Numbered from the stretch's first letter, positions 9,118 through 29,332 are shown. The stretch: 46,739 nucleotides of DNA from Thermomicrobiales bacterium (GCA_020432165.1 JAGQGU010000011.1:53684-100422), one strand, 5' to 3'. Program-made: numbers and translations. The notes: generated from the letters alone by a model not told the origin.

Positions 9118-10281
9118 TCAGTTAAAAAACAGGATTCCAGACGCCACTAGAATCTCAGCAAAAAGGCTAACGATGGCAATATTGATCCAGTGGGAGATTG
9201 ATGCGGTTATTGTCTCGTTCTTGCTGATTGCGTATCTACGTCCATCGGCGATGTTCTCGACGGCTTTTGCTTTGGGTGCATTCTTGTAACCAAATAGGGT
9301 TTCAGCATCTGGAGCCCTTTGAAAGTCCCTCAGTCGATAGGACTGAATGAAGGAGATAGCACATGCTCCAAAAGTTGCTATTAGGGCCGCTGTCCAGGTC
9401 CAGTGTACCTGATCCCAGCTCTGTCCGCTGTATGCCAGAATAGCAGCGAGAATAGCTGAGCTCGCTGTAAACAGGAAAGCAGACTTGGTTGCAAGTGCTT
9501 GAATCTGATCGTCTTGAACGCTCTCTCTGTATCTCATTTCTTCAGCGACGATCGCGATTGTTTCTGGATCGGTTGGCGGCTCGCTGGCTTCTTCCACACC
9601 CTGTTGCTGATTCCTCGCTTCGATTTGCTCCGATTCCATGTTGGCACCTTTCACGCGGCCCCACTTTATCTGGAGCTTCGGATACACCCTGAGAAAGAAG
9701 AAGCAAGCTAGAATTGATAGGCCGATGACTGTGTCCACCCACAGATAGCCTAATGGGTAATCTGAAGCCACCCACAGATTGAAAAGGAGTGCAGAAGTCA
9801 CAGTCGCGACAGAGATTGGAAATATGAAAACATATGCCAACCAGGCTACATTGAGAATTGTCGGGTAATCCTCCTCGTACATTGCGCCTTCTCGCTGGTA
9901 TAGCATCCCACCACCTAAAGCGGGAGAGATTTTCTTCTCTAGGAAGTGAATGTACGGATAACTCCGGTCAACTGCAACCGCCGCTTGACAGTATCGAAGT
10001 GCAACCGCCAAGGCTGCGATCCAGGTCATGGTTAGCAGAGCGGCTAGTGGCATTGTCTTCAGTGAGAACTCATAACCTGTGATAGCGATAGTTCCGAGAG
10101 CCTCGTGGAACTGTGATGGATATCCCACCTGTATTGAGATCAAGGAGTAAATCACGATCACCCAGACAAAACTGCGATCTCGTGATCTCTCCTGCGAGCG
10201 TAATCGTTCGAAGGACTCCTTGTAATGATCGTGGAGTATCTCCATCCTAGTGTCCGAGGAGATCATTTCCTGGCTATTCAT
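9118..10281 (-). CDS. Seven-TM protein with Pycsar/SLATT-like C-terminal membrane domain; putative effector
   Basis: 387 aa with predicted membrane segments near residues 38-54, 76-98, 142-170, 181-200, 264-284, 295-313 and 364-386, and a charged cytosolic linker at 203-260. The N-terminal four-TM part (HYKESFERLRSQERSRDRSF, then ALRYCQAAVAVDRSYPYIHF and KISPALGGG) belongs to an uncharacterised bacterial family as far as I can tell. The C-terminal part (DDQIQALATKSAFLFTASSA, then a second TM and RLRDF) resembles the TM domains of Pycsar- and SLATT-type effectors. Its ATG overlaps the stop of the TIR gene by 8 nt and AAGGGG precedes it, so translation is coupled. Inferred role: membrane-damaging or channel effector switched on by a TIR product. 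Confidence 0.7.
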   Translation of the reverse strand: MNSQEMISSDTRMEILHDHYKESFERLRSQERSRDRSFVWVIVIYSLISIQVGYPSQFHEALGTIAITGYEFSLKTMPLAALLTMTWIAALAVALRYCQAAVAVDRSYPYIHFLEKKISPALGGGMLYQREGAMYEEDYPTILNVAWLAYVFIFPISVATVTSALLFNLWVASDYPLGYLWVDTVIGLSILACFFFLRVYPKLQIKWGRVKGANMESEQIEARNQQQGVEEASEPPTDPETIAIVAEEMRYRESVQDDQIQALATKSAFLFTASSAILAAILAYSGQSWDQVHWTWTAALIATFGACAISFIQSYRLRDFQRAPDAETLFGYKNAPKAKAVENIADGRRYAISKNETITASISHWINIAIVSLFAEILVASGILFFN

Positions 10282-10708
10282 TGATCCCCTTCAGGATCTT
10301 GTCGACAGTAAAGGACATTGCCCAGCTCGTTCCTGAGTTAAGCAGAGGGTCTGGAGAAAGATTCGTGCTGTTGATCTTTACAGCAATCAACTTCTTACCA
10401 AGGCTTTTAGCTTTGTTTATCTCCCACCATTGCCAATTGCGGTCACCGATCAGCAGATAGTCGGAGTGGAGCTCGTTTGCGTGTTCACCGACTATCACGA
10501 GGAGGTGAGTTGAATCTCCTATCTTCTGCGACAAAGAGGCTTTGACCCGACCTACATCGCTCGAATTGATTTCCCCAGGGGTCAGATCCTCAAAGTCAAT
10601 CAACGATGATTCATTCTCCTTCAATGCCGTCAGAAGGTATCGGTATCGACTGTCGTTATGAAAATCGAAGCTGATGCAGATCTTCTTAGTTCGGTGAGTG
10701 TTGTTCAT
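10274..10708 (-). CDS. TIR-like (ThsB / DUF1863-type) domain protein
   Basis: A 144-aa single-domain protein. It has the ThsB/MTH538-like TIR layout: first strand and loop KKICISFDFHNDSRYRYLL, the central DSTHLLVIVGEHANE strand, and WQWWEINKAKSLGKKLIAVK, where E96 aligns with the catalytic glutamate of NAD-consuming TIRs. In Thoeris, ThsB makes an ADP-ribose-derived signal that activates ThsA. Here no SIR2- or Macro-type ThsA lies nearby; the neighbour is a 7-TM protein instead. The ATG lies 8 nt after the RyR-like gene's coding end; AGGAAA overlaps that gene's stop codon, and its own stop lies inside the start of the 7-TM gene. Enzyme activity is inferred from family, not shown. Confidence 0.8.
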   Translation of the reverse strand: MNNTHRTKKICISFDFHNDSRYRYLLTALKENESSLIDFEDLTPGEINSSDVGRVKASLSQKIGDSTHLLVIVGEHANELHSDYLLIGDRNWQWWEINKAKSLGKKLIAVKINSTNLSPDPLLNSGTSWAMSFTVDKILKGINE

Positions 10709-11494: not shown

Positions 11495-11896
11495 ATGGAG
11501 CTTAAAGATCGGTTGGCCGAATTACGACGGTCTAGAGGATTCTCTTTGCGAGAGCTCAGAGAGCGGATTGAAGACCGCACTGGAGAGCAGATGGCAATTT
11601 CTTACCTCTCGGCCTTAGAACGACTAGGACGGGCGCCCTCGATTGACTCTCTTAGTAAGATTGCGGCTGGCTACGATATGTCGCTGAAGGGTCTTCTCGC
11701 TCCAACCAACCTAGTCAGCACCACTTTGGTGCAAGACCTCCCGCCAGGGCTGGAAGCAGCTAGGATTAAGTTCAGGCTTAGCGACCACGAGGTAGCAGAG
11801 CTTGCTTCTATACCTTTCCGTGGTCGTCGCCCAGAGACGGAACGGGAGTGGGAGGTGCTTCTGTCTGTGCTTGGGTTTGGTGAGGAGCAAGATTAA
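11495..11896 (+). CDS. XRE-family HTH regulator (ImmR/CapH-like)
   Basis: 133 aa. The N-terminal 70 residues form an XRE helix-turn-helix (LKDRLAELRRSRGFSLRELR, YLSALERLGRAPSIDSLSKI). The C-terminal part (residues 80-133) is short and charged, a plausible dimerisation and cleavage region. It is followed within 6 nt by an ImmA/IrrE metallopeptidase gene, the standard pair in which the protease cleaves the repressor after a stress signal. It is divergent from the TIR operon, with shared TAGAGAACA sites between. This is the same logic as CapH/CapP control of CBASS. AGGAAA precedes ATG 11495. Target assignment is inference. Confidence 0.85.
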   Translation: MELKDRLAELRRSRGFSLRELRERIEDRTGEQMAISYLSALERLGRAPSIDSLSKIAAGYDMSLKGLLAPTNLVSTTLVQDLPPGLEAARIKFRLSDHEVAELASIPFRGRRPETEREWEVLLSVLGFGEEQD

Positions 11897-11902
11897 GCGG
11901 CC

Positions 11903-12724
11903 ATGCCTACAGAATTCCTATCCGACTATAAACTGGAGTCATCTGTATTGGCTCTCGTGCACAATTTCCGTGATGAATACAACTTACCTTCACATGTTCC
12001 AGTGTCTCATGTGCTGTCGACTCTTGGGTTGACCTTGCGATATGCCGACCTTGGCGTTGATCGTGATGGAATGCTGAAGGGTCGAGAAGTGCTCATTAAT
12101 AGTCGCGTCAGAAACGCAGCTCGAGCCGAATACACCATTTTTCATGAAGTTATGCACCACTTATTGGATCAAGATGGAACTCTTTATGAGTACCTCACCG
12201 AGAAACTGCCAAATGATGAGGTGGCGTTTGATCGGGCGATCGAACGATGGTGCCAGATTGGTGCGGCGGAGTTTGTGTTGCCGAGGGTGGAAGTGCATCG
12301 CATACTTGAACGCGATGGCTTTTCGGTAACCGTGGTGCCAACCATGAGGCACGAGTTGGGAGCCTCATTGGTTGCCTGTGGCATTCAGCTAGCCGAATGT
12401 GCACCAGTGAAGTGCTATGTGTTGATCTGTCGGCACGGTCGTTCACCGAGGTTCCCTTATCCCACAACTTTGTACGTGGAGCAGGCGTCGTTTGGCGTCA
12501 GACAGAAATATCCCATTGCTAAGGGAACAGTAATTCCTAAGCCTCATATATTCTGGGATGCATGGGAGCTCGGAAAGAGTCAAGCGCCTACATCGGTTGT
12601 GCCATTTAGGAGTGGCAGGTCGATGCCATGCAAGGCCGCTGAGGCTGTCAGAGTTGATGCTCGAGTCGTAGGTTTGCTCTGCTTGGAGAATCCGATCTCG
12701 CCTAGCCAGCTTCCATTGTTATGA
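11903..12724 (+). CDS. ImmA/IrrE-family metallo-endopeptidase (CapP-like)
   Basis: 273 aa with the zincin motif HEVMHH (FHEVMHHLLDQDGTLY, about residues 83-98) and downstream EFVLPR, typical of the ImmA/IrrE (COG2856) fold. The C-terminal 100 residues include paired cysteines and may be a sensor. In family members this protease cuts its partner XRE repressor, on DNA damage in ICEBs1, Deinococcus IrrE and CBASS CapP. It lies 6 nt after the XRE gene. No good ribosome site precedes ATG 11903, so coupling to the XRE gene is likely. It ends before a 51-nt convergent gap. Confidence 0.85.
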   Translation: MPTEFLSDYKLESSVLALVHNFRDEYNLPSHVPVSHVLSTLGLTLRYADLGVDRDGMLKGREVLINSRVRNAARAEYTIFHEVMHHLLDQDGTLYEYLTEKLPNDEVAFDRAIERWCQIGAAEFVLPRVEVHRILERDGFSVTVVPTMRHELGASLVACGIQLAECAPVKCYVLICRHGRSPRFPYPTTLYVEQASFGVRQKYPIAKGTVIPKPHIFWDAWELGKSQAPTSVVPFRSGRSMPCKAAEAVRVDARVVGLLCLENPISPSQLPLL

Positions 12725-13711: not shown

Positions 13712-16700
13712 ATGGCGCGACTTGAAGACATCGTGACGGGCTCAAGAATCGAAGGCATCGATCCGCACGGACCGGTTGAGATCGAAAGCGCGAAGTGGTT
13801 CGGATCCGATGTTCTCGATATCATGTATCGCGATTCTCAGGGCCAACCGCGTGATCGTATGCTCTACCGTCATGATGAGCCATTACTTCGCGTTCTCGGC
13901 GAAAGCCGTCGCTGGAGTTTTGATGCTGACCCTGCACTAACGCGTCTGGCGGCGGAAGCCCAGCGAATACGACTCGCCTACAATTTCGATCCTCATCTCG
14001 CTATCCATAGCTCCGATGTCGATCCTTTGCCACACCAGATCACTGCCGTTTACGAATCAATGTTGTCGCGTCAGCCAATGCGTTACCTTCTAGCGGATGA
14101 TCCCGGTGCTGGTAAAACAGTCATGACAGGGCTCTTCATGAAAGAACTCTACCTTCGCGGAGATCTCGAGCGGTGTATGATCGTCTGCCCCGGAAGTCTT
14201 GCCGAACAGTGGCAGGATGAGTTGGATCAGAAATTTGGACTCTCTTTCGAAATCTTCACAAACGATCAGGCAGAAGCATCTCGCACCGGCAATTGGTTCT
14301 CTGAGCACGACATGGTCATTTGCCGACTCGACCAGTTGAGTAGGAACGAGGTTCTCCAGGAGCAACTGGAGCAGACCGATTGGGATCTTATTGTCGTAGA
14401 TGAAGCGCATAAAATGTCGGCCTCATATTATGGTGACGAGTTGAAGAAGACTCGTCGGTATCAACTGGGTGAGAAGCTCGGTGGACTAACCAGGCACTTC
14501 CTCCTACTCAGCGCTACCCCTCACAACGGGAAAGAGGCCGACTTTCAATTGTTCATGGCGCTCCTGGATGGTGATCGGTTTGAGGGTAAGTACCGTGAGG
14601 CAGTTCACACGCAGAAGGCCGATGACCTCATGCGAAGAATGGTCAAGGAGCAGCTGGTACAGATGGACGGCAGGCCGCTCTTTCCAGAGCGATTTGCCTA
14701 CACCGTACCCTATGCGCTTTCCGACAAAGAGGCGGTTCTCTACGAAGCTGTGTCCGAATATGTTCGTGATGGATTCAACCGAGCTGATTCTATTGAGGAT
14801 GGGAATCGCAAGAATAATGTTGGATTTGCGCTCACTGTGCTTCAGCGACGAGTTGCTTCCTCACCCGAGGCTATCTATCAATCTCTCGTGCGACGTCACG
14901 ACAGGCTGAAAACGAGGCTCGACGAGGAGCGCATCAATCGGCAAGCGGGCGATTTCCGTTTGCAACAGCTGGAAACCACGTCCGAGGAAGACCTCGACGA
15001 AATCGACGAAGGATTGGCAACCGACTTCGAAGATCAAGAGGATTCATTGGCAGATCGATCGACCGCGTCGATGACGCTACGAGAGCTCGAGGCAGAGATC
15101 ACTGTGCTGGAAGGCCTGGTGCAACTTTCTGACGAGGTGCGTAAGAGCGGGCAGGATCGTAAGTGGGAAGAACTCTCCTCCATTCTGCAGGAACGAGTGC
15201 CGGAGAAGGAGGAGACTCCTGCCAATCGGAAACTGGTCATCTTTACCGAGCATCGCGACACGCTCAACTACCTTCACAAGAAGATTGCGAATCTGACTGG
15301 GAAGCCAGAAACCATCGTGTCCATTACGGGTGGCATGAGCCGAGATGAGCGCCGCAAGGCTCAGGAGGCATTCACGCAAGACAAAACGGTGCAGATCCTG
15401 CTAGCCACTGATGCTGCGGGTGAGGGAATCAACTTGCAGCGTGCCCACCTGATGGTGAACTACGACCTCCCCTGGAACCCTAATCGACTCGAACAGCGTT
15501 TTGGCCGCATCCATCGAATTGGTCAACGCGAAGTCTGCCACCTATGGAACTTGGTTGCGCACGAAACTCGCGAAGGCGCGGTTTACCGTACATTGCTGGG
15601 CAAACTGGAGCAAGAACGAGAAGCCCTCGGTGGCAAAGTGTTCGATGTTCTTGGATCTATAAAATTCGGCGAGAACCAAACGTTACGAGATCTCCTTGTT
15701 GAAGCCATGCGATACGGAGACCAGGCCGATGTGAAACAGCGTCTCGACAAGGTGATAGAGGGCTCGGTCAACACGGAATCTCTCCAGCGATTGCTCAGCG
15801 AGAATGCACTTCACGGCTCAATACCGGCGATTGATGTCCAGGAGATCGCTGAGGCTATGGAGCGAGCTAATGCTCGCAGATTGCAGCCTCACTACATCTC
15901 ATCCTTTTTTCGGGAAGCGTTCACGCTTCTCGGAGGCAGGCTCAAGGATCGAGAAGCGGGCCGGTTCGAGATCAGCCATGTACCGGGAATCCTCCGCCAG
16001 AGAGGCCGGCTTATGGGCCGGGGTGCGGCACTGCTCGATCGCTACGAGCGCATCACGTTCGATCGTCAATATCGATACGTAGATGGTCGACCCAGTGCGC
16101 AATTCGTGACACCAGGTCATCCGTTGCTGGACACTGTTATTGACGTAGTGCTGGAACGCCATCGCATGCTGTTGCAGCAGGGCACGGTGCTCGTAGATGC
16201 CGAATCCACATCCAACACACCTCGCGTGCTTTACCTGATGGAACACGAAATCGTAGATGGCCGAACTAATCGCAATGGAGACCCGTTGACGGTCTCCAAA
16301 CGCATGCAGTTTGTTGAACTTGGCGCAGACGGAGCAATCCGAGATGCAGGACCAGCCCCATACCTAGATTACGAAGCACCGGTAGATGAGGTCTCCGAGG
16401 AGATAGCCAACATTTTGCACGATGAATGGCCCTCCAAGGATCTTCATCAGGAAGCTATCAGTCATGCCATTAGCACCGTTGCCCCTATGCACCTGCTGGA
16501 CGTGAAGCAACGAACAGACAGGCTCATCGATCGCACACTCAGCGCCGTTCACGAGCGCCTCACACATGAGATTCAGTATTGGGACCATAGATACGTCACG
16601 TTGGCGGAGGATGAATCTCGCGGCAAAAAGAAGCGTGTTACTGCCGAGGGGGCCAAAAGACGACGAGATGATCTCCAACGTCGGTTGGAAGAGCGCACGC

Positions 16701-17230
16701 ACGAACTAGAGCTGCAGAAGCGGCTTGCACCACGGAAACCTGTGCTGAAGGGTGCCATGCTTGTGGTTCCAGCAGCAATGCTGTCGACGTACGAGGCAAT
16801 CGATGACGATCAGTCCACACCAGAAGAGCGCAAACGTATCGAGTTGGCGGCTATGGAAGCCGTGATGCGGTTTGAACGGTCTCTTGGAAACGAGCCTCGA
16901 GACGTGAGTGGTCAAAATGCCGGCTACGATATCGAATCTCGCGTTCCCAACGCGCCGCCAGGAACCCTCCGCATGATCGAAGTAAAGGGGCGAGTCAAAC
17001 ACTCCCGCACCGTGATGGTAACCAAGAATGAGATCCTCACTGCCAAGAATAGCCCGGAAACCTGGATCCTCGCTCTTGTAGAAGTTGACGGCGAGCAAAC
17101 AGAGCTTACATATCTCACGGAGCCCTTCTCCAACCTTCAAGATCCCGACTTCTCAGTTGCGGGCGTCAGTTTTGTTATCGACAGGTTAATTAATGTCGCC
17201 AGAGGGAGTATGTCCAATGCAAGCCAGTGA
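13712..17230 (+). CDS. SNF2/DEAD-type helicase with C-terminal DUF3883
   Basis: About 1172 aa. ATG 13712 is preferred: GGGGAG lies upstream and conserved text (MARLEDIVTGSRIEGIDP) begins there; a TTG at 13667 would add 15 residues. Superfamily-2 motifs: DDPGAGKT (about residue 130), DEAH in LIVVDEAHKM (about 230), LLSATPHNGK, then LLATDAAGEGINLQ (about 563) and RFGRIHRIGQ (about 596). The last 120 residues match DUF3883 (GYDIESR...RMIEVKGRV...LTAKNS). Such helicases occur beside DUF1156 methylases and DUF499 ATPases in predicted defence islands and resemble DISARM DrmD. Probable role: ATP-driven DNA translocation during recognition or processing of foreign DNA. First gene of a four-gene operon; its stop lies inside the next gene. 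Confidence 0.85.
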   Translation: MARLEDIVTGSRIEGIDPHGPVEIESAKWFGSDVLDIMYRDSQGQPRDRMLYRHDEPLLRVLGESRRWSFDADPALTRLAAEAQRIRLAYNFDPHLAIHSSDVDPLPHQITAVYESMLSRQPMRYLLADDPGAGKTVMTGLFMKELYLRGDLERCMIVCPGSLAEQWQDELDQKFGLSFEIFTNDQAEASRTGNWFSEHDMVICRLDQLSRNEVLQEQLEQTDWDLIVVDEAHKMSASYYGDELKKTRRYQLGEKLGGLTRHFLLLSATPHNGKEADFQLFMALLDGDRFEGKYREAVHTQKADDLMRRMVKEQLVQMDGRPLFPERFAYTVPYALSDKEAVLYEAVSEYVRDGFNRADSIEDGNRKNNVGFALTVLQRRVASSPEAIYQSLVRRHDRLKTRLDEERINRQAGDFRLQQLETTSEEDLDEIDEGLATDFEDQEDSLADRSTASMTLRELEAEITVLEGLVQLSDEVRKSGQDRKWEELSSILQERVPEKEETPANRKLVIFTEHRDTLNYLHKKIANLTGKPETIVSITGGMSRDERRKAQEAFTQDKTVQILLATDAAGEGINLQRAHLMVNYDLPWNPNRLEQRFGRIHRIGQREVCHLWNLVAHETREGAVYRTLLGKLEQEREALGGKVFDVLGSIKFGENQTLRDLLVEAMRYGDQADVKQRLDKVIEGSVNTESLQRLLSENALHGSIPAIDVQEIAEAMERANARRLQPHYISSFFREAFTLLGGRLKDREAGRFEISHVPGILRQRGRLMGRGAALLDRYERITFDRQYRYVDGRPSAQFVTPGHPLLDTVIDVVLERHRMLLQQGTVLVDAESTSNTPRVLYLMEHEIVDGRTNRNGDPLTVSKRMQFVELGADGAIRDAGPAPYLDYEAPVDEVSEEIANILHDEWPSKDLHQEAISHAISTVAPMHLLDVKQRTDRLIDRTLSAVHERLTHEIQYWDHRYVTLAEDESRGKKKRVTAEGAKRRRDDLQRRLEERTHELELQKRLAPRKPVLKGAMLVVPAAMLSTYEAIDDDQSTPEERKRIELAAMEAVMRFERSLGNEPRDVSGQNAGYDIESRVPNAPPGTLRMIEVKGRVKHSRTVMVTKNEILTAKNSPETWILALVEVDGEQTELTYLTEPFSNLQDPDFSVAGVSFVIDRLINVARGSMSNASQ

Positions 17231-18140
17231 ACTCATGTTTAGCACTACGTTGAAGCAGCTGGAGAGTAGCCTCTCTGTACAGCTTGTAGCGGGAAACCAT
17301 CTCCGTGTTTTTGAGACCGATGAGTCAAGTTCCAGTGCATTTTCAGAAATGAATGAGATGGATTTCAGCCAGGCTCCAGTTTCGTCTGATGGTCAGGTCG
17401 TTGGCGTTATTGATCGAGAGGACACGGACCGAGGCGCTTTGGTGGCGCATTGGATGAAGCCATTGTCCGCCTCCCATTTGATTTCTAGTCAAACCAGCTT
17501 GCGAGAAGTGATTCGGATTCTTGCAAGTGACAAGAGAAGATATCGTCTAATACTGACCGGAAGTGATGTGACTGGCATTGTCACAAGGAGCGACCTTCAG
17601 AAGCTTCCCGTAAGACTGCTTGCCTTCAGCTACGTGACCCATTTGGAAACCCTGTTCACAGAGTTGATACTTTCTGAATCGTCTGCCGATGAATGGGTGG
17701 ACTACTTGCGTGATTTTGACTCCAGTCTGGGTGGGTTTGCTCAGAATATGCTTGGTCCGTTGATTGGAACCAAAGCGGTAGAGGATCTTTACAAGAAGCA
17801 GCAAAACTTTGCTCATAAGGACGTTGTTCCTCCACTTGTAGAAGTTTTGGAGTTTTCTCAGAAGTGGTATGTCGTCTGTAGAGCACTTGACTTCGGTGAG
17901 AAGTTTGCGGCGGACATGGCCGGGATTCAGAGATACTTGAGGAACCCGGTTGCACATTCCAGAAATTATGTATCCAGCGATTTGCAACTCGAGCAGTTGA
18001 ATCGTAGGCTCGAAATCTGTGAAGAATGGATAGAGGTACTGACTGACTCAGTGATTGGAGCGACTCCGGTTTCAGACTCAGTTGATCCTGATATTCGTAT
18101 ACAACAGTGGGAAGATAGTTTGTCATGGCCAAAAAGCTGA
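17217..18140 (+). CDS. CBS-pair / HEPN-like protein embedded in the defence operon
   Basis: About 307 aa. Residues 45-140 hold a CBS pair (MDFSQAPVSSDGQVVGVID; then VAHWMKPL...SLREVIRILASDKRRYRLIL and DVTGIVTRSDLQK), a fold that binds adenosine nucleotides. The C-terminal 150 residues are helical and end with LRNPVAHSR, a good RNxxxH (R-X4-H) HEPN ribonuclease-type motif. The gene overlaps the helicase by 14 nt and the methylase by 16 nt, so it is fully embedded. AGAGGGAG lies 8 nt before ATG 17217; an ATG at 17193 is less likely. Its codon use looks more AT-rich than its neighbours, hinting at separate origin. Proposed role: nucleotide-gated RNase arm of the system. The HEPN call is by motif only. 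Confidence 0.6.
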   Translation: MQASELMFSTTLKQLESSLSVQLVAGNHLRVFETDESSSSAFSEMNEMDFSQAPVSSDGQVVGVIDREDTDRGALVAHWMKPLSASHLISSQTSLREVIRILASDKRRYRLILTGSDVTGIVTRSDLQKLPVRLLAFSYVTHLETLFTELILSESSADEWVDYLRDFDSSLGGFAQNMLGPLIGTKAVEDLYKKQQNFAHKDVVPPLVEVLEFSQKWYVVCRALDFGEKFAADMAGIQRYLRNPVAHSRNYVSSDLQLEQLNRRLEICEEWIEVLTDSVIGATPVSDSVDPDIRIQQWEDSLSWPKS

Positions 18141-20920
18141 TCGAAGTCGCACTCCCACTCGAAGAGATCAACAAGGCGAGTGCTCGCGAGAAATCTATCC
18201 GGCATGGACATCCCAGCACGCTTCATCTCTGGTGGGCGCGCCGACCATTGGCCGCAGCGAGGGCAGTCATCTTCTCGTCCCTTATCACCGACCCAGGTGA
18301 TCCGGACTATCCATGGAAAGACGGGCAGGAGCGCGATGTGGAGAAGGAGCGAGGTCGCCTCCATCAGCTCATCGTCGATCTTGTGCAATGGGAGAACACC
18401 ACCAACGAGACCGTGCTGAACAAGGCTCGTGAGGAGATTCTGCTGCACACCGACGGAAACCCTCCGCCTCTGCTGGATCCCTTTGCCGGAGGCGGAGCTA
18501 TCCCACTGGAGGCCCAACGTCTCGGCCTGGAAGCCCACGCCAGCGACCTGAACCCAGTAGCCGTGCTGATCAACAAGGCCATGATTGAGATTCCGCCGAA
18601 GTTCGCCGGTATGCCACCAGTGAATCCAGAGCAGCGCAACCAACCGAAGGTGGCATGGAAGGGTGCTGCCGGGCTGGCGGAGGATGTGCGTTACTACGGC
18701 AAGTGGATGCGCGACGAAGCCGAGAAGCGCATTGGTCACCTGTATCCGAAAGTGACATTGCCAAAGGAGCAGGCCGGTGGCGAAGCGACAGTAATCGCCT
18801 GGCTCTGGGCGCGAACCGTCACCTGCCCGAACCCGGCATGCGGTGCCGAGATGCCACTTATCTCTTCGTACTGGCTCTCGAAAAAGAAGGGCAAAGAAAC
18901 ATGGGTTGAGCCAATCATCGATGGCAAAGAGGTCTCGTTCGAGGTTCGTACGGGTAAGAGTGGCCCGAAGGTCCCCCCCAAGCAGGGACGTGGAGCGAAG
19001 TTTGCATGTTTGGTCTGTGGCGATGTGGCACCGGAACAACACATCAAGGCAGAGGGCACTTCGCATCGCATGGGACAGAAGTTGATGTCCATAGTAGCGG
19101 AAGGCCACCGGGGTCGGGCGTACATTGCACCGTCTGCTGAACACGAAGAGTTGGCCAGAGACGTGCGAGCAACATGGCGACCCACAATAGAGCAACCAAA
19201 GAACCCGAGATGGTTTTCTCCGCCAGCATATGGCCTGACTACCTTCGGCGATCTTTTCACCGAGCGCCAACTTGTCGCATTGACGACGTTCAGTGATCTT
19301 GTCGGTGAAGCACGGGAGTGCGTGCTCGCAGATGCCACGATGGCACTGAGCGCAGAATACGCCATCAGCGTACGGCCTCGTGCCAAGGCGTACGCTGATG
19401 GCGTATCTACCTATCTTGCCTTCGCCGTAGATCGAATAGCCGACAGAGGATCAACGATAGCATCCTGGGACAGTTCCGCATCAAAGATGCGGAACTCGTT
19501 CGGTAGACAGGCCTTACCGATGACGTGGGATTATGGGGAGGCCAACCCGTTTAGCTCATCCACTGGTTGTTGGGATAATGCTATCTCCTGGATCGAAGAG
19601 GTCGTGGAAGCCTTGCCTGCGAATAGCCCAAGTGTGGTGAGCCAGCAAGATGCCACTCGAGTGAGGGGATTCGATGCGGGAATAATCTCTACTGATCCGC
19701 CGTACTACGACAATATCGGATATGCAGACTTAAGCGACTTTTTCTATGTTTGGCTCCGACGAGCCCTTGTGGATGTTTGGCCGTCTTTATTCACAACACT
19801 TCAAGTTCCCAAAGAAGAGGAACTCGTTGCGACACCTTATCGCTTTAAAGGCGGAAAGAAGGAAGCGGAGAGGTTTTTTGAGGACGGGCTTCGGCACACG
19901 TTTGCCGGTACCGTTCAGATTCAAGACCCAGATTTTCCAACTACTGTCTACTATGCGTTCAAGCAGGCTGAGACCATTGAAACCAAAGATGGGCAGGGTT
20001 CTGAATCCGCTTCAACAGGGTGGGAGACCATGTTGGAAGGCTTGATTGTGTCTGGGTATCAAATCACTGGTACCTGGCCGATGCGGACCGAAATGTCCAA
20101 TCGCAATATCGCGTCTGGTACCAACGCTCTTGCCTCCTCAATTGTTCTCGCGTGCCGTGTTCGACCAGGCAACGCACCCGAAGCGACACGCCAGCAGTTC
20201 CTGCGCGAGATGAGAAGTAAACTTGCGGAGGATCTCAAGCCACTCCAACACTCCAATATCGCACCGGTCGATCTTGCCCAGGCAGCTATCGGCCCAGGTA
20301 TGGCCATTTATTCCAAGTACAGTCGTGTACGGGAGGCATCTGGCGATTCCCTTCGTGTTCGCGAGGCGCTTGCCCTCATTAATCAGGTGCTGGATGAGGT
20401 GCTGGCAGAGCAGGACGAGGAGTACGATCCCGCCACTCGCTGGGCTATTACCTGGTACGAACAACACCAAATGAACGAGGGTCCATATGGCGATGCCGAA
20501 GGCCTGGCCCGAGCACGCAATGTTTCTGTGGACGATATGGCAAGCGATGGCATGCTGCTTTCCGGTCGTGGCAAAGTCCGCTTCATCTGGCGTGAAGAGC
20601 TGCCCGAACTCGTTCCAGGCTGGAAGCCACGTTCACAAGATGTCGCTGATTGGGTGATCATGCAGCGGCTCGCCCACGCTGTGCAGGATGGCCAGCGCGA
20701 TGCCGCTACTATCAAAGCGGCAATCGATGCTGCATTGCCCGGTCGCACCGAGCTCGCTCGCGATCTCGCATATCGTGCCTATAACATCGCCGAGCGCAAG
20801 GGTTGGCAGCGCGAGGCACTGGTGTACAACACCCTCGTACAGAACTGGGCAGCAATAGAGCAGCTTGCGGATGAGATGTCCATGCCAAACGTCGAACGTC
20901 AGTCCGGTCTCGACCTGTAA
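18125..20920 (+). CDS. DUF1156-type adenine-specific DNA methyltransferase
   Basis: 931 aa. The N-terminus (KLIEVALPLEEINKASAREK, then HPSTLHLWWARRPLAAARAV) is the DUF1156 signature. AdoMet motif I is DPFAGGGA (about residue 119) and the catalytic motif IV is DPPYYDN (about residue 524), as in N6-adenine methylases. A Cys-rich pair (CPNPACGAEMP and CLVCGDVAP) suggests an internal zinc ribbon. Probable role: host modification that marks self DNA for the operon. It overlaps the CBS-HEPN gene by 16 nt and is followed after 18 nt by the DUF499 gene. Family confident; the recognition sequence is unknown. Confidence 0.9.
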   Translation: MAKKLIEVALPLEEINKASAREKSIRHGHPSTLHLWWARRPLAAARAVIFSSLITDPGDPDYPWKDGQERDVEKERGRLHQLIVDLVQWENTTNETVLNKAREEILLHTDGNPPPLLDPFAGGGAIPLEAQRLGLEAHASDLNPVAVLINKAMIEIPPKFAGMPPVNPEQRNQPKVAWKGAAGLAEDVRYYGKWMRDEAEKRIGHLYPKVTLPKEQAGGEATVIAWLWARTVTCPNPACGAEMPLISSYWLSKKKGKETWVEPIIDGKEVSFEVRTGKSGPKVPPKQGRGAKFACLVCGDVAPEQHIKAEGTSHRMGQKLMSIVAEGHRGRAYIAPSAEHEELARDVRATWRPTIEQPKNPRWFSPPAYGLTTFGDLFTERQLVALTTFSDLVGEARECVLADATMALSAEYAISVRPRAKAYADGVSTYLAFAVDRIADRGSTIASWDSSASKMRNSFGRQALPMTWDYGEANPFSSSTGCWDNAISWIEEVVEALPANSPSVVSQQDATRVRGFDAGIISTDPPYYDNIGYADLSDFFYVWLRRALVDVWPSLFTTLQVPKEEELVATPYRFKGGKKEAERFFEDGLRHTFAGTVQIQDPDFPTTVYYAFKQAETIETKDGQGSESASTGWETMLEGLIVSGYQITGTWPMRTEMSNRNIASGTNALASSIVLACRVRPGNAPEATRQQFLREMRSKLAEDLKPLQHSNIAPVDLAQAAIGPGMAIYSKYSRVREASGDSLRVREALALINQVLDEVLAEQDEEYDPATRWAITWYEQHQMNEGPYGDAEGLARARNVSVDDMASDGMLLSGRGKVRFIWREELPELVPGWKPRSQDVADWVIMQRLAHAVQDGQRDAATIKAAIDAALPGRTELARDLAYRAYNIAERKGWQREALVYNTLVQNWAAIEQLADEMSMPNVERQSGLDL

Positions 20921-20938
20921 TCAGAAGAGGAACTCCCA

Positions 20939-23900
20939 GTGGCACTTACAAACAGACAACGTGTAGATGAAGCACTCCTGACCTTGCGCGATGGACTCAA
21001 GCTCTTTTTGGAGCAAGTGATTACTGCCAAATACAATGCCGATGCCTGGACATTTGCCGCCGAGGGATCCGATCGCTTCAATACTCGATCCGACGAGCTC
21101 GATCTCACGCGCCTGTTTAACATTTTTCATGAGTACCGGAACGATATCCGGGAGATTCTCGGCAAATCTGCCATGAACATGATTCACGAAACCCAGGAAA
21201 TTCGGAATCAGTTTTCGCATCAGAAGCCGTACTCCACGGAGGATACACTCCGCGCCCTGGATACCATTCAGCGTGTTCTGGAAGCAGTTCAGCAACCGAA
21301 GCTTCATGAAGCAGTAGCTGCCTCGCACGAGCAGGTATTGCGCGAACTGTTTGCCAAGCAGGCGCAAAACGCCACCCGCAAACACGTGCGCAGTATCAAA
21401 TCACAGGCCGATGCTGCGCTGAGCCCCTGGCGGGATGTTGTGGTGCCTCATGACGACGTGCGCACTGGTCAACTGAAGGAGGCCGAGTTTGCCGCCGATC
21501 TGGACCAGGTGGCTCGTGGCAAGGCTGGCCCAGAGTATCAGGACCCGCATGAGTTCTTTGCACGCACGTATCTGACCGAGGGCCTCACCGAATTACTCAA
21601 GACCGCGCTACACCGACTTCATGGTACCGGCGGCGATCCTGTAGTGGAACTCCAAACAAATTTCGGTGGCGGTAAAACGCACAGTATGATTGCGCTCTAC
21701 CATCTCGGGGCAGGGCTCGACCTTACAACCATTCCGTCCCTTGAATCGCTTGTGCGGGATATGGGATCCATCGAACCCCTGTATGTACAACGTGCCGTTA
21801 TTGTGGGTACCAAGCTCTCACCCAACGAAGTAGATACGAAGCCGGATGGTACCGAGGTCCGCACGCTCTGGGGCGAACTCGCCTGGCAGTTGGCGGGTGC
21901 AGATGGGTACGCGTTGGTTGCGGATTCTGATAAGAGTGGATTCGCACCCGGTTCCACAGTCATTCAGAAACTTTTCGATCTCGCTGGCCCAAGTCTCATC
22001 CTCATCGACGAATGGGTTGCATTTGCTCGCCACTTGTACTCCGCCGGAGATACTCCACCTGCGGCAGGGTCGTTCGACTCCAACCTCACATTTGCGCAAT
22101 CGCTTACCGAAGCAGTTGCCGTAACTCCACACGTGTTGCTGGCTGCATCTCTGCCCAGCTCGGAGATCGAAGTTGGCGGGCGCGGTGGTCAGGAAGCACT
22201 GAGCAGGCTAAGCAACACGTTCAGTCGCGTCAAGGCAACGTGGCGGGCTGCATCGAGCAACGAGGGCTTCGAGATCGTCCGTCGACGCTTGTTCAAGGAT
22301 ATCGATGATCCCCGCAAGCGCGACGCCACCATTCTTATGTACCTGAAGATGTATCAGGAAGGCAAAACCCAGTATCCCACCAAGGTGCACGATGCAGATT
22401 ACAAGCGTAGGATGGAAGCGGCATATCCGTTCCATCCGGAAACGTTCGATCTCCTCTTCGATGTTTGGGGATCGTTGGAGCGATTTCAGCGTACCCGTGG
22501 CGTGCTGCGCCTTATGGCAAACGTGGTTCACACCCTGTGGGATCGTAACGATTCCAGTCCACTAATCATGCCGGCGAATCTGCCGCTGGATGCATCCAGT
22601 GTAATTACCGAGATGGGAAGTTATCTTCCAGATTCCTGGTCGTCAGTAATCGAGCATGATATCGACGGCGATCACGCGTACTCAGTGGCGATTGACCGTG
22701 CCAACGCCAATTTCGACAAGCTTTCTGCTACGCGTCGAGTGGCGAGAACCGTGTTCATGGGTTCTGCGCCTACATTCCGCAGCGAGAATCGCGGTATCGA
22801 TGATCGCACGATCCGTCTGGGCGTAGTACAGCCCGGTGAGAGCGCTGCGATTTTTGGTGATGCACTCCGCACACTCGCAGATAAGGCAACGTATCTCTAT
22901 TCGGAGCATGGTCGCTACTGGTTCTCCACCCAAGCGAGCGTGACGCAGCAGGCACAGGAGCGGTTGGCGCAGCTCCCGGAAGCAGATGTCGATCACGAGA
23001 TTACTGAGATGCTGCGCAAGCAACAGTCGAGTCGTGGAATCTTTGATCGCGTTCATGTTGCCACAAACGGCAGCAGCGACATTGCTGATACCCCAGAAAC
23101 TGCGCTAGTTATACTCGGGCCTTTGTACGCCCACGTGCGGGGGCAAATGGGTGCGGATGATGGCATCAGTTCAGATGCAATACACGCCGCGAGAAACGCT
23201 GTTGATACCCGTGGCGACGCTCGCCGCCAGTATCGAAACGCGCTTCTGTTCCTCGCTCCCGATAACAGCAAGCTGACCGATCTGCGCAAAGCGGTAGCGG
23301 ATCACATCGTATGGTCTGGAATCGTAGACGCTCAGGAAAGTTTGAACCTGGATGCACAGCAATTGCGCCAGGCGCGAAGCAGGATGGAAGAGGCTGCGCG
23401 CTCATCGAGTGCCCGCCTCCGAGAAACCTGGAGTTGGCTGCTAGCGCCGTGGTCTGACCCAGTTTCCGGTGCGGACATCAAGTGGGAGGCTCGCCAGTTG
23501 AAGTCGGGCCGGGATGATGAACCGCTCGCCGTTATCGCCGGAAAGCGAGCGCTGCTGGAAGAGTTCGTTATCGAGAACTACGCAGGATCGATGTTGAGGG
23601 GGCAAATCGATCAGTTGCCGATTTTCCAGGATGGCTGGTCTCACATTGCTATTCGTGATCTGGCAACCTGGTTCTCAAACTATCTTTACCTGCCGCGCCT
23701 GAAGAGCCCGGCAGTGCTGCAAAAATCGATTTCTGAGGGGCTTAGGTTGCTCACATGGGAGCGAGATACGTTTGCCTACGCCGACGCGTGGGACGAGAAA
23801 GAACAGCGGTATCGCGGGCTCACCACGGGTCTGAGTAACGTCATTGATGTCAATATGCATAGCTCTGCAGTTCTTGTGAATCCGGTGGCTGCCAAACAGC

Positions 23901-24307
23901 AATTTGACGCCGACGAGCGAGAACGGGCGGAGCGGGAACAAGCGCAGCTGTATCCCACCACGTCCACTGGCGATTCTGGGTCGCAGGTCAACGAATCTGG
24001 CGCAGTTGCTCCAGGCGCGGCCACTCCGGATCTTGCCGGAGAGCAGGTCAGCAGGAGGTCCGTATCCCATTTAGCGCGGCGATACTACGGAACTGTTGCA
24101 TTGAATCATCAGACTCTGGCGTCACAGGTGACCGAGATATCACGTGAACTCATTACTCATCTGAGCAGCATCTACGGAGCGTCAGTGAAGATTTGCCTTG
24201 AGATTGAAGCTGAGATTCCCGATGGGGTTCCTGAATCCACGAGAAAGCATGTGGAGGATCGCGCGTCCGATCTAAGGTTCGATCAGTCTGAGTTCGTGGA
24301 GGATTAG
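20939..24307 (+). CDS. DUF499 AAA+ family ATPase
   Basis: 1122 aa. Walker A is FGGGKTHSM (about residue 243) and Walker B is LILIDEW (about residue 354). The N-terminus is an Swt1/DUF499-type helical region (ETQEIRNQFSHQKPYS). The C-terminus includes a low-complexity linker (DERERAEREQAQLYPTTSTG) and ends in an Asp/Glu-rich tail. DUF499 (COG1483) proteins pair with DUF1156 methylases and helicases in archaea and thermophilic bacteria, a long-predicted defence association. GTG start, GAGG 8 nt upstream. Last gene of the operon; after its stop the sequence becomes mobile-element debris. Biochemical role not established. Confidence 0.88.
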   Translation: MALTNRQRVDEALLTLRDGLKLFLEQVITAKYNADAWTFAAEGSDRFNTRSDELDLTRLFNIFHEYRNDIREILGKSAMNMIHETQEIRNQFSHQKPYSTEDTLRALDTIQRVLEAVQQPKLHEAVAASHEQVLRELFAKQAQNATRKHVRSIKSQADAALSPWRDVVVPHDDVRTGQLKEAEFAADLDQVARGKAGPEYQDPHEFFARTYLTEGLTELLKTALHRLHGTGGDPVVELQTNFGGGKTHSMIALYHLGAGLDLTTIPSLESLVRDMGSIEPLYVQRAVIVGTKLSPNEVDTKPDGTEVRTLWGELAWQLAGADGYALVADSDKSGFAPGSTVIQKLFDLAGPSLILIDEWVAFARHLYSAGDTPPAAGSFDSNLTFAQSLTEAVAVTPHVLLAASLPSSEIEVGGRGGQEALSRLSNTFSRVKATWRAASSNEGFEIVRRRLFKDIDDPRKRDATILMYLKMYQEGKTQYPTKVHDADYKRRMEAAYPFHPETFDLLFDVWGSLERFQRTRGVLRLMANVVHTLWDRNDSSPLIMPANLPLDASSVITEMGSYLPDSWSSVIEHDIDGDHAYSVAIDRANANFDKLSATRRVARTVFMGSAPTFRSENRGIDDRTIRLGVVQPGESAAIFGDALRTLADKATYLYSEHGRYWFSTQASVTQQAQERLAQLPEADVDHEITEMLRKQQSSRGIFDRVHVATNGSSDIADTPETALVILGPLYAHVRGQMGADDGISSDAIHAARNAVDTRGDARRQYRNALLFLAPDNSKLTDLRKAVADHIVWSGIVDAQESLNLDAQQLRQARSRMEEAARSSSARLRETWSWLLAPWSDPVSGADIKWEARQLKSGRDDEPLAVIAGKRALLEEFVIENYAGSMLRGQIDQLPIFQDGWSHIAIRDLATWFSNYLYLPRLKSPAVLQKSISEGLRLLTWERDTFAYADAWDEKEQRYRGLTTGLSNVIDVNMHSSAVLVNPVAAKQQFDADERERAEREQAQLYPTTSTGDSGSQVNESGAVAPGAATPDLAGEQVSRRSVSHLARRYYGTVALNHQTLASQVTEISRELITHLSSIYGASVKICLEIEAEIPDGVPESTRKHVEDRASDLRFDQSEFVED

Positions 24308-24568: not shown

Positions 24569-25021
24569 GATCGCTGCTGGCAGCGACGAGGCGTCCCCAC
24601 CCGTATCCCCGCCGCAGGAACCGACCAGCGCCTAGCGGTGTTTGGGCCCTTGGACTATGGCTCCGGGGAGCTCGCAACCGCCCAGGAGCAGACTGCCAAT
24701 GCGGCAATGTTCGTCGTGTTCCTCCATCATCCGTTCGTCCACTGGCCCACCGGTCAGCTGGTGCTGGTCCTGGACAATGCCAGCTACCACCGGACGGCGG
24801 CGGTGCATTCATGGTTCGCCACACATCAGAACCGGATCAGCGTGATCTGGCTGCCGACCTTTCCCCAGCTCAATCTGATCGAACGCGTGTGGCGATTCCT
24901 GAAGACGATGCTCGCCTGCCATCGCTTCTGGAACGATCGCGACAGCTTGGCCAAGCGAGCCCAATCCCTCTGCGATGCGATCCGCGCGACCTTCCACGCC
25001 GAGGCCTCGCCACACATCTAG
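24569..25021 (+). pseudogene. IS630-family transposase, C-terminal remnant
   Basis: The frame encodes the last DDE-domain part of an IS630 (Tc1/mariner-like) transposase: RIPAAGTDQRLAVFGPLDY, VLVLDNASYHRTAAVHSW (second Asp) and WLPTFPQLNLIERVWRFLK (catalytic Glu region). The N-terminal HTH and the first catalytic Asp region are missing or degenerate, and there is no proper start. The sequence after the stop, up to the CACTAG at 25050, may keep the right terminal end; no matching left inverted end is seen. Not functional. Confidence 0.8.
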
Positions 25022-25245: not shown

Positions 25246-27174
25246 ATGCAGCTTCACGCGGTGACCTTGACGAACTATCGACGCTTCGTTGACGAGACGA
25301 TCCTGCTCTCCGGGAGCCCAATCGCGCTCATTGGCCCCAACGAGGCTGGCAAAAGCACGGTCTTGCAAGCGATCCGCGATGTTCATTCGGAGCGAGCGAT
25401 TCCACTGCGTCGTCGATCGCGTGGATCAGATGAGCGCGTGTCAGTGACTGCGAGCTACGTCCTTGATGATAATGACCGTTCGGCACTCAAGGGTATCCGA
25501 GGTGGTGATGTAGCAAGAACCTTCGACTACACCAAATGGGTCGACGACGAGGACGACGGTGTCTCGTTCGCGATCGCGCCGCGCCCGGAGCGGGATCTGT
25601 CAGACCGGCATGCGCTTGGGCTCTCTCTCGCAGGCTGGCATGAACAGCAGGAAATCCTGAACCTCAAGAACGCCGATGGCAAAGACGTAAGCGTTGTCGC
25701 TGATGCAGCGATCGCGGTCCTTCAGGACAGCGCCGAGACACTGACCACACAGAACCTGGCAGCGCTGCGGGAGTATGTCCGCATCATGCGCCTATTCAGC
25801 CAAGTGGCAGATGCAGAATATACGGAGATTTCTGATGAGTATCGTCAACTCCTAGGTACGTTGGAGAACTACGTCGAGGAAGACGCCCCAATATATCAGG
25901 CGCTCAGTGTTCTGGAGGAGCGCAGGCCTGCCTGCCTGGAGTTCTCTGACGAGGACCGGACACTCCGTTCGTCCTATTCCTTGCCAGAAGTGGTGACGGA
26001 TACACCGCAGTCGCTCCGCAACTTCCTCGCGATGGTGAACGTCGACGTTGCGGACATTGAGCGAGAGCGTGGCAAGGACGACCCTCCCGCACTCCAGACT
26101 CTACTGAATCGGATCAACCGGCAACTTCGCGAGACATTCACATCAAGCTGGGATCAGTCGCTGTTACGAGTTGAGATTAGCATAAACGGGGACGTTCTTC
26201 ACCTCTTCCTCTCTACGCCCGATGACGCCTTGAGCGCCATTGAAGAGCGTAGCGATGGCCTTCGGTCCTTCATCGCGTTGCAGTCATTCGTGCACGCGCA
26301 CGAAGCCGTTATCCCACCGATTCTCACGATCGACGAGGCCGAGGCTCACTTGCACTACGACGCTCAGGCCAACCTCATCGACATGTTGACAGAGCAGACA
26401 GCTGCTTCAAAAGTGGTGTACTCGACCCACTCATTTGCATCACTTCCACCTGACCTTGGAACGGGCATTCGCGTTGTGCGTCCCGTCTCGGGAAAAGAAC
26501 AGAGCCAAGTGCTTCCTAGCATCTGGAGCGATGCGTCTCCCGGGTTTCGCCCCCTCCTGACTGGACTCGGAGCAACGTCGTTCGCTTTCCTCCCTTCTCG
26601 CCATGTGCTCTTTGGCGAAGGCCCTGTCGATGCCATGCTGCTGCCCACGATGTTCCGAGAAGCATTGGGTACTGACCACCTTTCGTTTCAGGTGGCGCCT
26701 GGGATCTCCATCATCAATCGCGACAGACTCGGGGACCTTCTCGATGAGGGTGGCCGCGTCGCGTTCATCACCGATGGCGATGGTGAGGGGCGGGGGTTTC
26801 ATGATCAGCTCGTAGCTGCCGGCGTGAAAGAAGATGTCATCTTCTCACTTGCAGACCTCGGCCTGGGAGCGATGATCCTCGAAGATCTGGTCCAGAAAGA
26901 TGCCTACCGTCTTGCTGTGATCGAGGAGCTCTCGTCCAAGCATCCCGATCTGGCCTTCTCTGGCCTTCCACAGCCTGATGACCTCGGCCGAATCGCCCAG
27001 TATCGGAAGTGGTGTTCCCGGCATAATCTTCCCAAGCCGAACAACAAGCGGGATGTCGCCCAAAGAATCCTGAACCGTCGAATTTCGGATCCTTTGGCGG
27101 TGGTGCTGGATGCACGTTATCGAGAGAGGATGGCGCTGCTCGCAGAGAAAATTGAGGATTCGTTCCAGCGTTGA
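25246..27174 (+). CDS. OLD-family ATP-dependent nuclease (AAA ATPase plus TOPRIM)
   Basis: 642 aa. The ABC-like ATPase starts at once (MQLHAVTLTNYRRF) with Walker A GPNEAGKST at residues 30-38 and Walker B LTIDEAEAHLH near 362, followed by the STHS H-loop. A C-terminal TOPRIM domain has the metal-binding Glu in FGEGPVDAM (about 457) and FITDGDGEG (about 509). This is the layout of OLD nucleases and of GajA of Gabija. No UvrD-like GajB follows, so a class-1 stand-alone OLD or an orphaned GajA-like gene is the best reading. ATG 25246 has GAGGTG 8 nt upstream. The 220 nt before it hold no gene. It lies between transposase debris on both sides, consistent with acquisition. Confidence 0.85.
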   Translation: MQLHAVTLTNYRRFVDETILLSGSPIALIGPNEAGKSTVLQAIRDVHSERAIPLRRRSRGSDERVSVTASYVLDDNDRSALKGIRGGDVARTFDYTKWVDDEDDGVSFAIAPRPERDLSDRHALGLSLAGWHEQQEILNLKNADGKDVSVVADAAIAVLQDSAETLTTQNLAALREYVRIMRLFSQVADAEYTEISDEYRQLLGTLENYVEEDAPIYQALSVLEERRPACLEFSDEDRTLRSSYSLPEVVTDTPQSLRNFLAMVNVDVADIERERGKDDPPALQTLLNRINRQLRETFTSSWDQSLLRVEISINGDVLHLFLSTPDDALSAIEERSDGLRSFIALQSFVHAHEAVIPPILTIDEAEAHLHYDAQANLIDMLTEQTAASKVVYSTHSFASLPPDLGTGIRVVRPVSGKEQSQVLPSIWSDASPGFRPLLTGLGATSFAFLPSRHVLFGEGPVDAMLLPTMFREALGTDHLSFQVAPGISIINRDRLGDLLDEGGRVAFITDGDGEGRGFHDQLVAAGVKEDVIFSLADLGLGAMILEDLVQKDAYRLAVIEELSSKHPDLAFSGLPQPDDLGRIAQYRKWCSRHNLPKPNNKRDVAQRILNRRISDPLAVVLDARYRERMALLAEKIEDSFQR

Positions 27175-27529: not shown

Positions 27530-27605
27530 TGGTACGCCCGGCAGGATTCGAACCTGCGGCCTTCTGCTCCGGAGGCAGACGCTCTATCCCCTGAGCTACG
27601 GGCGC
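27530..27605 (-). tRNA. tRNA-Arg (anticodon CCG)
   Basis: 76 nt with encoded CCA. Acceptor GCGCCCG pairs with CGGGCGT; T arm GCAGG-TTCGAAT-CCTGC; anticodon stem TCTGC/GCAGA with loop CTCCGGA gives CCG, reading codon CGG. Its 3' end faces the accessory island, the side on which tRNA-integrating elements insert. Confidence 0.95.
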
Positions 27606-28973: not shown

Positions 28974-29332
28974 GGGGATGTCCGGTTTCGACAGGGTCGA
29001 ACGCCAGGTCATTGCACGCCGAAGCGCCCGAGGCTTCGTAAAAACGGGCAAAACAATAGTTGACAACAATCAACTTGCTTACGCTGCCTAAGTCACTGAC
29101 CTCTAGGTAGCGCGTCCCACGATTCTCTCTCCGTCGGAATCGGTTCGGGGCGCCACCAAGACGGGGTGCTGCGATTCAGACCGCTGATTCGAGATCGCTC
29201 AAGCCAATTCAGCAACCTGCTACGAGAGCCGGTCGATGGGCGCTCCAGGCAGGTACAAAACATCGACTAAGCGTGTAGTAGATGGCCGGTTGACGGTTCT
29301 GGACGGGGGTTCGATTCCCCCCATCTCCACCA
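28974..29332 (+). ncRNA. ssrA: tmRNA (transfer-messenger RNA)
   Basis: The 5' end GGGGATGTCCGGTTTCGACA pairs with the 3' end CATCTCC-A-CCA through the acceptor stem, and the 3' part has a T arm (GGGGGTTCGATTCCCCC). The tag frame at 29047-29091 reads GKTIVDNNQLAYAA then TAA, with the resume codon GGC inferred. A TATAAT at 28929-28934 is a likely -10 box. tmRNA with SmpB rescues stalled ribosomes and marks the product for proteolysis; Lon, encoded at 41.2 kb, is one of the proteases that can degrade tagged proteins. Confidence 0.95.

Follow-up and report, generated by a model that had tools for sequence, protein, structure and literature searches.

We find that the window, a stretch of 46,739 nucleotides from a Thermomicrobiales bacterium (GCA_020432165.1, JAGQGU010000011.1:53684-100422), holds what is probably an ordinary Hma operon whose slot between hmaA and hmaB is filled by an autonomous, DS-11-like CBS-HEPN abortive-infection gene, which would be swappable and not an obligate subunit of the system. 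We regard the additional gene as an accessory because of a survey of the same slot in other genomes, and a swappable suicide-backup module is its most likely role, given that the cargo of the slot varies and that CBS-HEPN proteins are a validated stand-alone type of defence. This connects a recently validated kind of one-gene defence with the cargo slot found in a widespread methylase-helicase-ATPase system. The same type of gene also occurs inside DISARM and restriction-modification operons.

All four genes are arranged head to tail on the plus strand, in the order hmaA (13712-17230), CBS-HEPN gene (17217-18140), hmaB (18125-20920) and hmaC (20939-24307). According to the ORF calls, the CBS-HEPN gene overlaps hmaA by 14 nt (17217-17230) and hmaB by 16 nt (18125-18140), both as reported in a preliminary description of this DNA. 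A longer ATG start for the gene is also present at 17193, and a Shine-Dalgarno-like GAGGGAG is located upstream of 17217. Using PADLOC and Pfam models, HmaA is assigned as an SNF2 helicase with a C-terminal NOV_C/DUF3883 nuclease-like domain at residues 1043-1134 (PDLC00659, 1559 bits over residues 1-1164; Helicase_C, SNF2 and NOV_C), HmaB as a DUF1156 adenine-N6 methyltransferase with a DPPY motif (PDLC00660, 1137 bits; PF06634 at the start of the protein, E 7e-26) and HmaC as a DUF499 AAA+ ATPase (PDLC00662, 942 bits; PF04465, E 2e-28). HmaC also carries a Swt1-like HEPN domain at its N-terminus (residues 12-117, 20972-21289, plus strand; PF18731, E 5e-18) with the motif RNQFSH at 21203-21220, as do 35 of the 39 HmaC proteins in our survey with respect to the Swt1-type domain, and the operon consequently encodes two HEPN domains. 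In a scan for promoters and terminators the site count was below that of shuffles. The helicase, DUF1156 methylase and DUF499 ATPase named in the preliminary description thus agree with the Pfam and PADLOC assignments, but its comparison with DISARM does not hold: HmaA scores 1559 bits against 420 for DrmD in PADLOC, and since the helicase is HmaA and neither DrmB nor DrmC is present among the nine proteins scanned around the operon, we do not use DISARM as a label. By their profile matches, the core three genes are the Hma system (HmaA/B/C), alias Type-1 BREX-related (BR)(PMC12839542).

The fourth gene encodes a protein of 307 aa with a CBS pair at residues ~18-128 and a predicted HEPN domain at ~129-281, the boundaries being drawn from Pfam, AlphaFold2 models, structural matches and the family alignment. 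Pfam detects CBS (E 9e-9) and none of its models detects HEPN in this protein. In the full-length AlphaFold model (mean pLDDT 70.8), the CBS pair precedes a helical region, and the modelled pair resembles nucleotide-bound CBS structures at a Z of ~9.5 (2rc3, 9.7; AcuB with ADP or AMP, 9.3; MJ0100 with SAM/MTA, 9.3), with human CBS bound to SAM also among the matches. Foldseek matched the CBS part alone when given the whole model and returned no significant HEPN match for a model of the HEPN region only (pLDDT 77.5). A second look with VIA-align at the HEPN-only model, among 306 aligned chains, gave HEPN proteins in all of the best 11 rows, at Z values of 9.7-6.7, a range of which 7-10 can be middling for helical bundles, ahead of the first unrelated row at 6.3; these rows comprise 1wwp (9.7), seven HepT/HEPN toxin entries (7.8-8.2), Csm6' (7.7), 1ufb (7.5) and AbiF (6.7). 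A HEPN helical-bundle fold of the C-terminal region is supported by this modelling, and both folds postulated in the preliminary description are thereby detected in models.

The RNPVAH motif (residues 242-247; 17940-17957, plus strand), which had been noticed before, is a predicted HEPN Rx4H catalytic motif. In the models it closes a long helix and precedes the final helix of the bundle, which is the usual HEPN arrangement. Its R and H are invariant in 21 of 21 relatives in the family alignment, the adjacent N differs in two of them, and the first HEPN helix has a Glu that is invariant across the same 21. The second CBS domain retains T123 and D126, invariant in ten. The corresponding T-x-x-D of other CBS proteins contacts adenosine ligands, so binding of an adenosine-type ligand by the CBS pair is plausible from the conserved residues. 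An origin of the gene by duplication of the HmaC HEPN was considered and is unsupported, given that profiles of the CBS-HEPN protein and of the Swt1-HEPN in HmaC matched weakly (56.6%, 32 columns).

A functional precedent comes from DS-11, an anti-phage system published in 2026 that consists of a single CBS-HEPN gene and defends E. coli by itself, with defence abolished by changes to a CBS tyrosine or to the HEPN catalytic residues, and for which modelling favoured ATP as the ligand (PMC13092281). Like DS-11, the window protein has a CBS pair followed by a HEPN with RN-x3-H, and the two are homologous over both domains: in an hhalign comparison, our family profile matched five Chloroflexota DS-11-type proteins at 97.9% in an alignment of 203 columns that spans both CBS domains and reaches the HEPN motif, where RNPVAH aligns with their RNDVMH. 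Unlike DS-11, it is embedded in Hma and has no counterpart of the N-terminal ~80 aa, and it scores 20.7 bits against the curated DS-11 model (NCBIfam NF053863), below the cut-off of 260. In the approximate region of the adenine-contacting Y157 of DS-11, only some CBS-HEPN members have an aromatic residue. Judged by homology, the window protein probably works like DS-11, though it falls outside the curated cut-off. The nucleotide-sensing RNase arm proposed in the preliminary description is supported as a prediction, and that it adds abortive infection is plausible by analogy with DS-11 (PMC13092281); a HEPN arm is not, however, first brought into the system by this gene, for HmaC already has one.

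We evaluated how often such a gene sits in Hma operons through a search for HmaB in 400 Chloroflexota genomes, 82 of which had a match at E 1e-60, plus 158 genomes of the class. This provided 55 partly non-independent loci, all from Chloroflexota and exclusive of the window, in which hmaA and hmaB share a strand (48 + 7). The junction between the two genes measures at most 110 nt in 23 of the 55, 13 of these being exactly a 4-nt overlap of hmaA and hmaB; it is 121-458 nt in six, and in the other 26 it exceeds 600 bp and is filled with 0.7-4.2 kb of unrelated genes. Cargo of this kind includes SLFN_AlbA_2 (L062, L079), AAA_15/OLD (L065, L091, L111), GmrSD_N (L070, L080), Macro/DarG (L076), AbiJ-NTD4 (L063), MNT-HEPN (L113, L164), ADP-ribosylglycohydrolase (L086), a sacsin-like giant (L066), protein kinases (L109, L115) and SAVED (L118). 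The fit can be as tight as in the window, with 4-nt overlaps at both ends of the cargo in L070 and L079 and nearly so in L066. On a FastTree phylogeny of HmaA, the slot switches between cargo and empty on at least nine occasions, and even sisters can be in opposite states: L079 has 2.4 kb where L085 has a 4-nt overlap, and L086 and L100 form another such pair. The junction between hmaA and hmaB serves as a cargo slot with turnover of its contents, and about half of the sampled Chloroflexota Hma operons bear accessory genes at exactly this point. In the Hma-type slot of L118 (4821-7930), the SAVED-domain protein is accompanied by a nucleotidyltransferase-like gene, a CBASS-like arrangement.

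A profile search for CBS-HEPN across the slots of the 55 other Chloroflexota operons returned none, and the combination of Hma with CBS-HEPN rests on one locus. A conserved fourth subunit is therefore unsupported, as none of the other junctions surveyed has the gene and the slot holds many other defence genes instead. HmaB has no match in congeneric genomes, as expected of acquired DNA.

Relatives of the CBS-HEPN protein were collected by a contig scan with one narrow pattern, by which members were certainly missed, and by profiles, which were adopted later because a single-protein query across the phylum gave mostly generic CBS pairs. In two class-1 DISARM operons (L141 and L142, the identity tested on the latter and the gene order being the same in the former) a CBS-HEPN gene lies between drmMI and drmA. 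The encoded proteins (L141:5847-7622 and L142:9934-11709) have 591 aa, and their C-terminal part matches PADLOC PDC-S11. Elsewhere, CBS-HEPN is found with a type IIG-like methylase on one side and a BrxH/DrmD-like helicase on the other (L136), in the vicinity of a type IIG methylase (L137) and, broken by a transposase, beside a DruE-like helicase (L025). In Haladaptatus (L021) a methylase-like protein carries it as a C-terminal fusion, with a UvrD-type and a second helicase adjoining; the fusion, at L021:5245-6717 on a plasmid, belongs to a row of UvrD/RecB-like, DrmE-like (weak) and helicase genes that is possibly an undescribed system. Seven haloarchaea have CBS-HEPN without obvious defence neighbours. 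A second, orphan CBS-HEPN with the motif RNVIMH is present in the window's own genome (L158:9884-10894; G000:C50), and it recurs in two congeners in a similar neighbourhood (L158-L160). None was found in phages or IMG/VR, and plasmids gave three distant haloarchaeal matches only. A search for HmaB in the haloarchaeal and actinobacterial hosts of CBS-HEPN gave no match, and neither did the control in that search. Given the occurrence of relatives in DISARM, in methylase/helicase loci and alone, the CBS-HEPN family moves between systems and can stand alone.

From these data we propose the following mode of action. Methylation of self DNA is the expected role of HmaB, and HmaA, through its helicase and NOV_C nuclease, would restrict unmethylated phage DNA together with the HmaC AAA+ ATPase, as can be extrapolated from the related systems (PMC12839542); the HEPN of HmaC would be a built-in RNase. 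The CBS-HEPN protein would be made from the same message as its neighbours and co-expressed with them through the start/stop overlaps. Judging by the fold, the motif and DS-11, its CBS pair would bind an adenine-containing nucleotide and keep a HEPN dimer inactive until infection alters the ligand, whereupon the R242/H247 (RN-x3-H) site would cut RNA and halt the cell. Abortive infection may in this manner form a second line of phage defence if Hma is overwhelmed or inhibited.

Overlaps on both sides of the gene could equally mean a co-translated working subunit. CBS-HEPN would then bind HmaABC as a fourth component, read a nucleotide or the state of the complex, and fire its RNase only after Hma recognises phage DNA. 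The presence of CBS-HEPN in DISARM and other methylase/helicase operons, and the one fusion to a methylase-like domain, can be read in the same direction. We nevertheless consider this unlikely: the 55 other junctions surveyed are either empty or hold unrelated genes with equally tight overlaps, DS-11 functions alone and further relatives are alone in haloarchaea. Less probable again is that CBS-HEPN is dedicated to guarding methylase-based defence, as a SAM- or adenine-nucleotide-sensing RNase recruited separately by Hma, DISARM, type IIG loci and the methyltransferase fusion, which would kill the cell when a phage attacks the cofactor or the system.

Another reading, in which the protein guards the methylation side and HEPN is freed upon depletion of S-adenosylmethionine by a SAM lyase or upon a block of the methylase, is to our minds improbable. 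SAM and MTA are known ligands of CBS pairs, MJ0100 and human CBS being among the structural matches, and six family members occur with methylases (the window, L136, L137, L141, L142 and L021), but for about half of the relatives there is no methylase in the vicinity (haloarchaeal L119-L125, L126 and L158) and the modelling of DS-11 favoured ATP (PMC13092281). We attach the least probability to a chance, non-functional or housekeeping insertion, such as a CBS protein that regulates RNA turnover and takes no part in defence. Some relatives do lack defence neighbours, and that of L158-L160 has neighbours that are conserved in the genus and are not defence genes; however, in the window the frame is intact, the catalytic pair is invariant and the gene sits at a precise site in a defence operon, and the family has been placed repeatedly in DISARM and restriction-modification operons. 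Compared with all of these, a swappable, autonomous suicide-backup gene remains the probable explanation, and the main uncertainty is whether CBS-HEPN reads the state of Hma itself. With two point mutants and the four genes, an independent backup can be told apart directly from a guard of the host system.

The surroundings of the operon contain further candidate defence genes. Upstream on the plus strand lie an HTH repressor-like, CapH-like gene (11495-11896; PADLOC capH, E 1e-6; Pfam HTH_3) and an ImmA/IrrE-type M78 metallopeptidase gene, CapP-like (11903-12724; PADLOC capP, E 8e-13; Peptidase_M78). CapH/CapP-like pairs are often found upstream of defence operons as regulators, and this one (11495-12724) may control hmaA, ~1 kb downstream, or the island. 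On the minus strand, a ThsB-like TIR gene (10274-10708) overlaps by 8 nt a gene encoding 387 aa with several apparent membrane segments (9118-10281), and the two are possibly a Thoeris-like pair of TIR and membrane effector. Downstream of hmaC, an AAA_15/OLD-TOPRIM-like protein is encoded on the plus strand (25246-27174), probably a further defence gene, and between the two a frame resembling a transposase remnant with a DDE-type ending is located at 24638-25021. Close to this frame are a tRNA-Arg (27530-27605) and a tmRNA (28974-29332), and together the three likely mark an island boundary.

Hma has been renamed the Type-1 BREX-related (BR) DUF499 system (PMC12839542), and the window shares with it the helicase, methylase and ATPase in that order, the C-terminal nuclease domain of HmaA, DUF1156 and the HEPN on DUF499; it differs in the CBS-HEPN gene between hmaA and hmaB, for which PADLOC has no model. 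HEPN-DUF499 fusions have been known since 2013 (Anantharaman 2013, PMC3710099), and the passages of that paper on HEPN fused to CBS (alr3009, Pelobacter) treat it as a predicted nucleotide-sensing RNase architecture, the one predicted here, with no link to Hma given there. Core loci of BREX and BR are described as holding embedded auxiliary or backup effectors, namely HEPN, Schlafen, TOPRIM and PIN (PMC12839542), among which a CBS-regulated HEPN is not described in the main text of that paper, where "CBS" has 0 mentions. Hma-embedded candidates (HEC) and PDC genes were named by "guilt-by-embedding" (Payne et al. 2024, preprint, cited in PMC12988326). The window resembles them, as portrayed there, in having a defence gene between Hma core genes (17217-18140), and our survey reproduces such embedding; its CBS-HEPN protein differs in matching no PADLOC model at E 0.01, HEC and PDC models included, which agrees with the earlier remark that it is not a listed component. 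The core system, the embedding and the CBS-HEPN defence type have each been described already, and it is their combination, Hma with CBS-HEPN, that is new to the searched databases.
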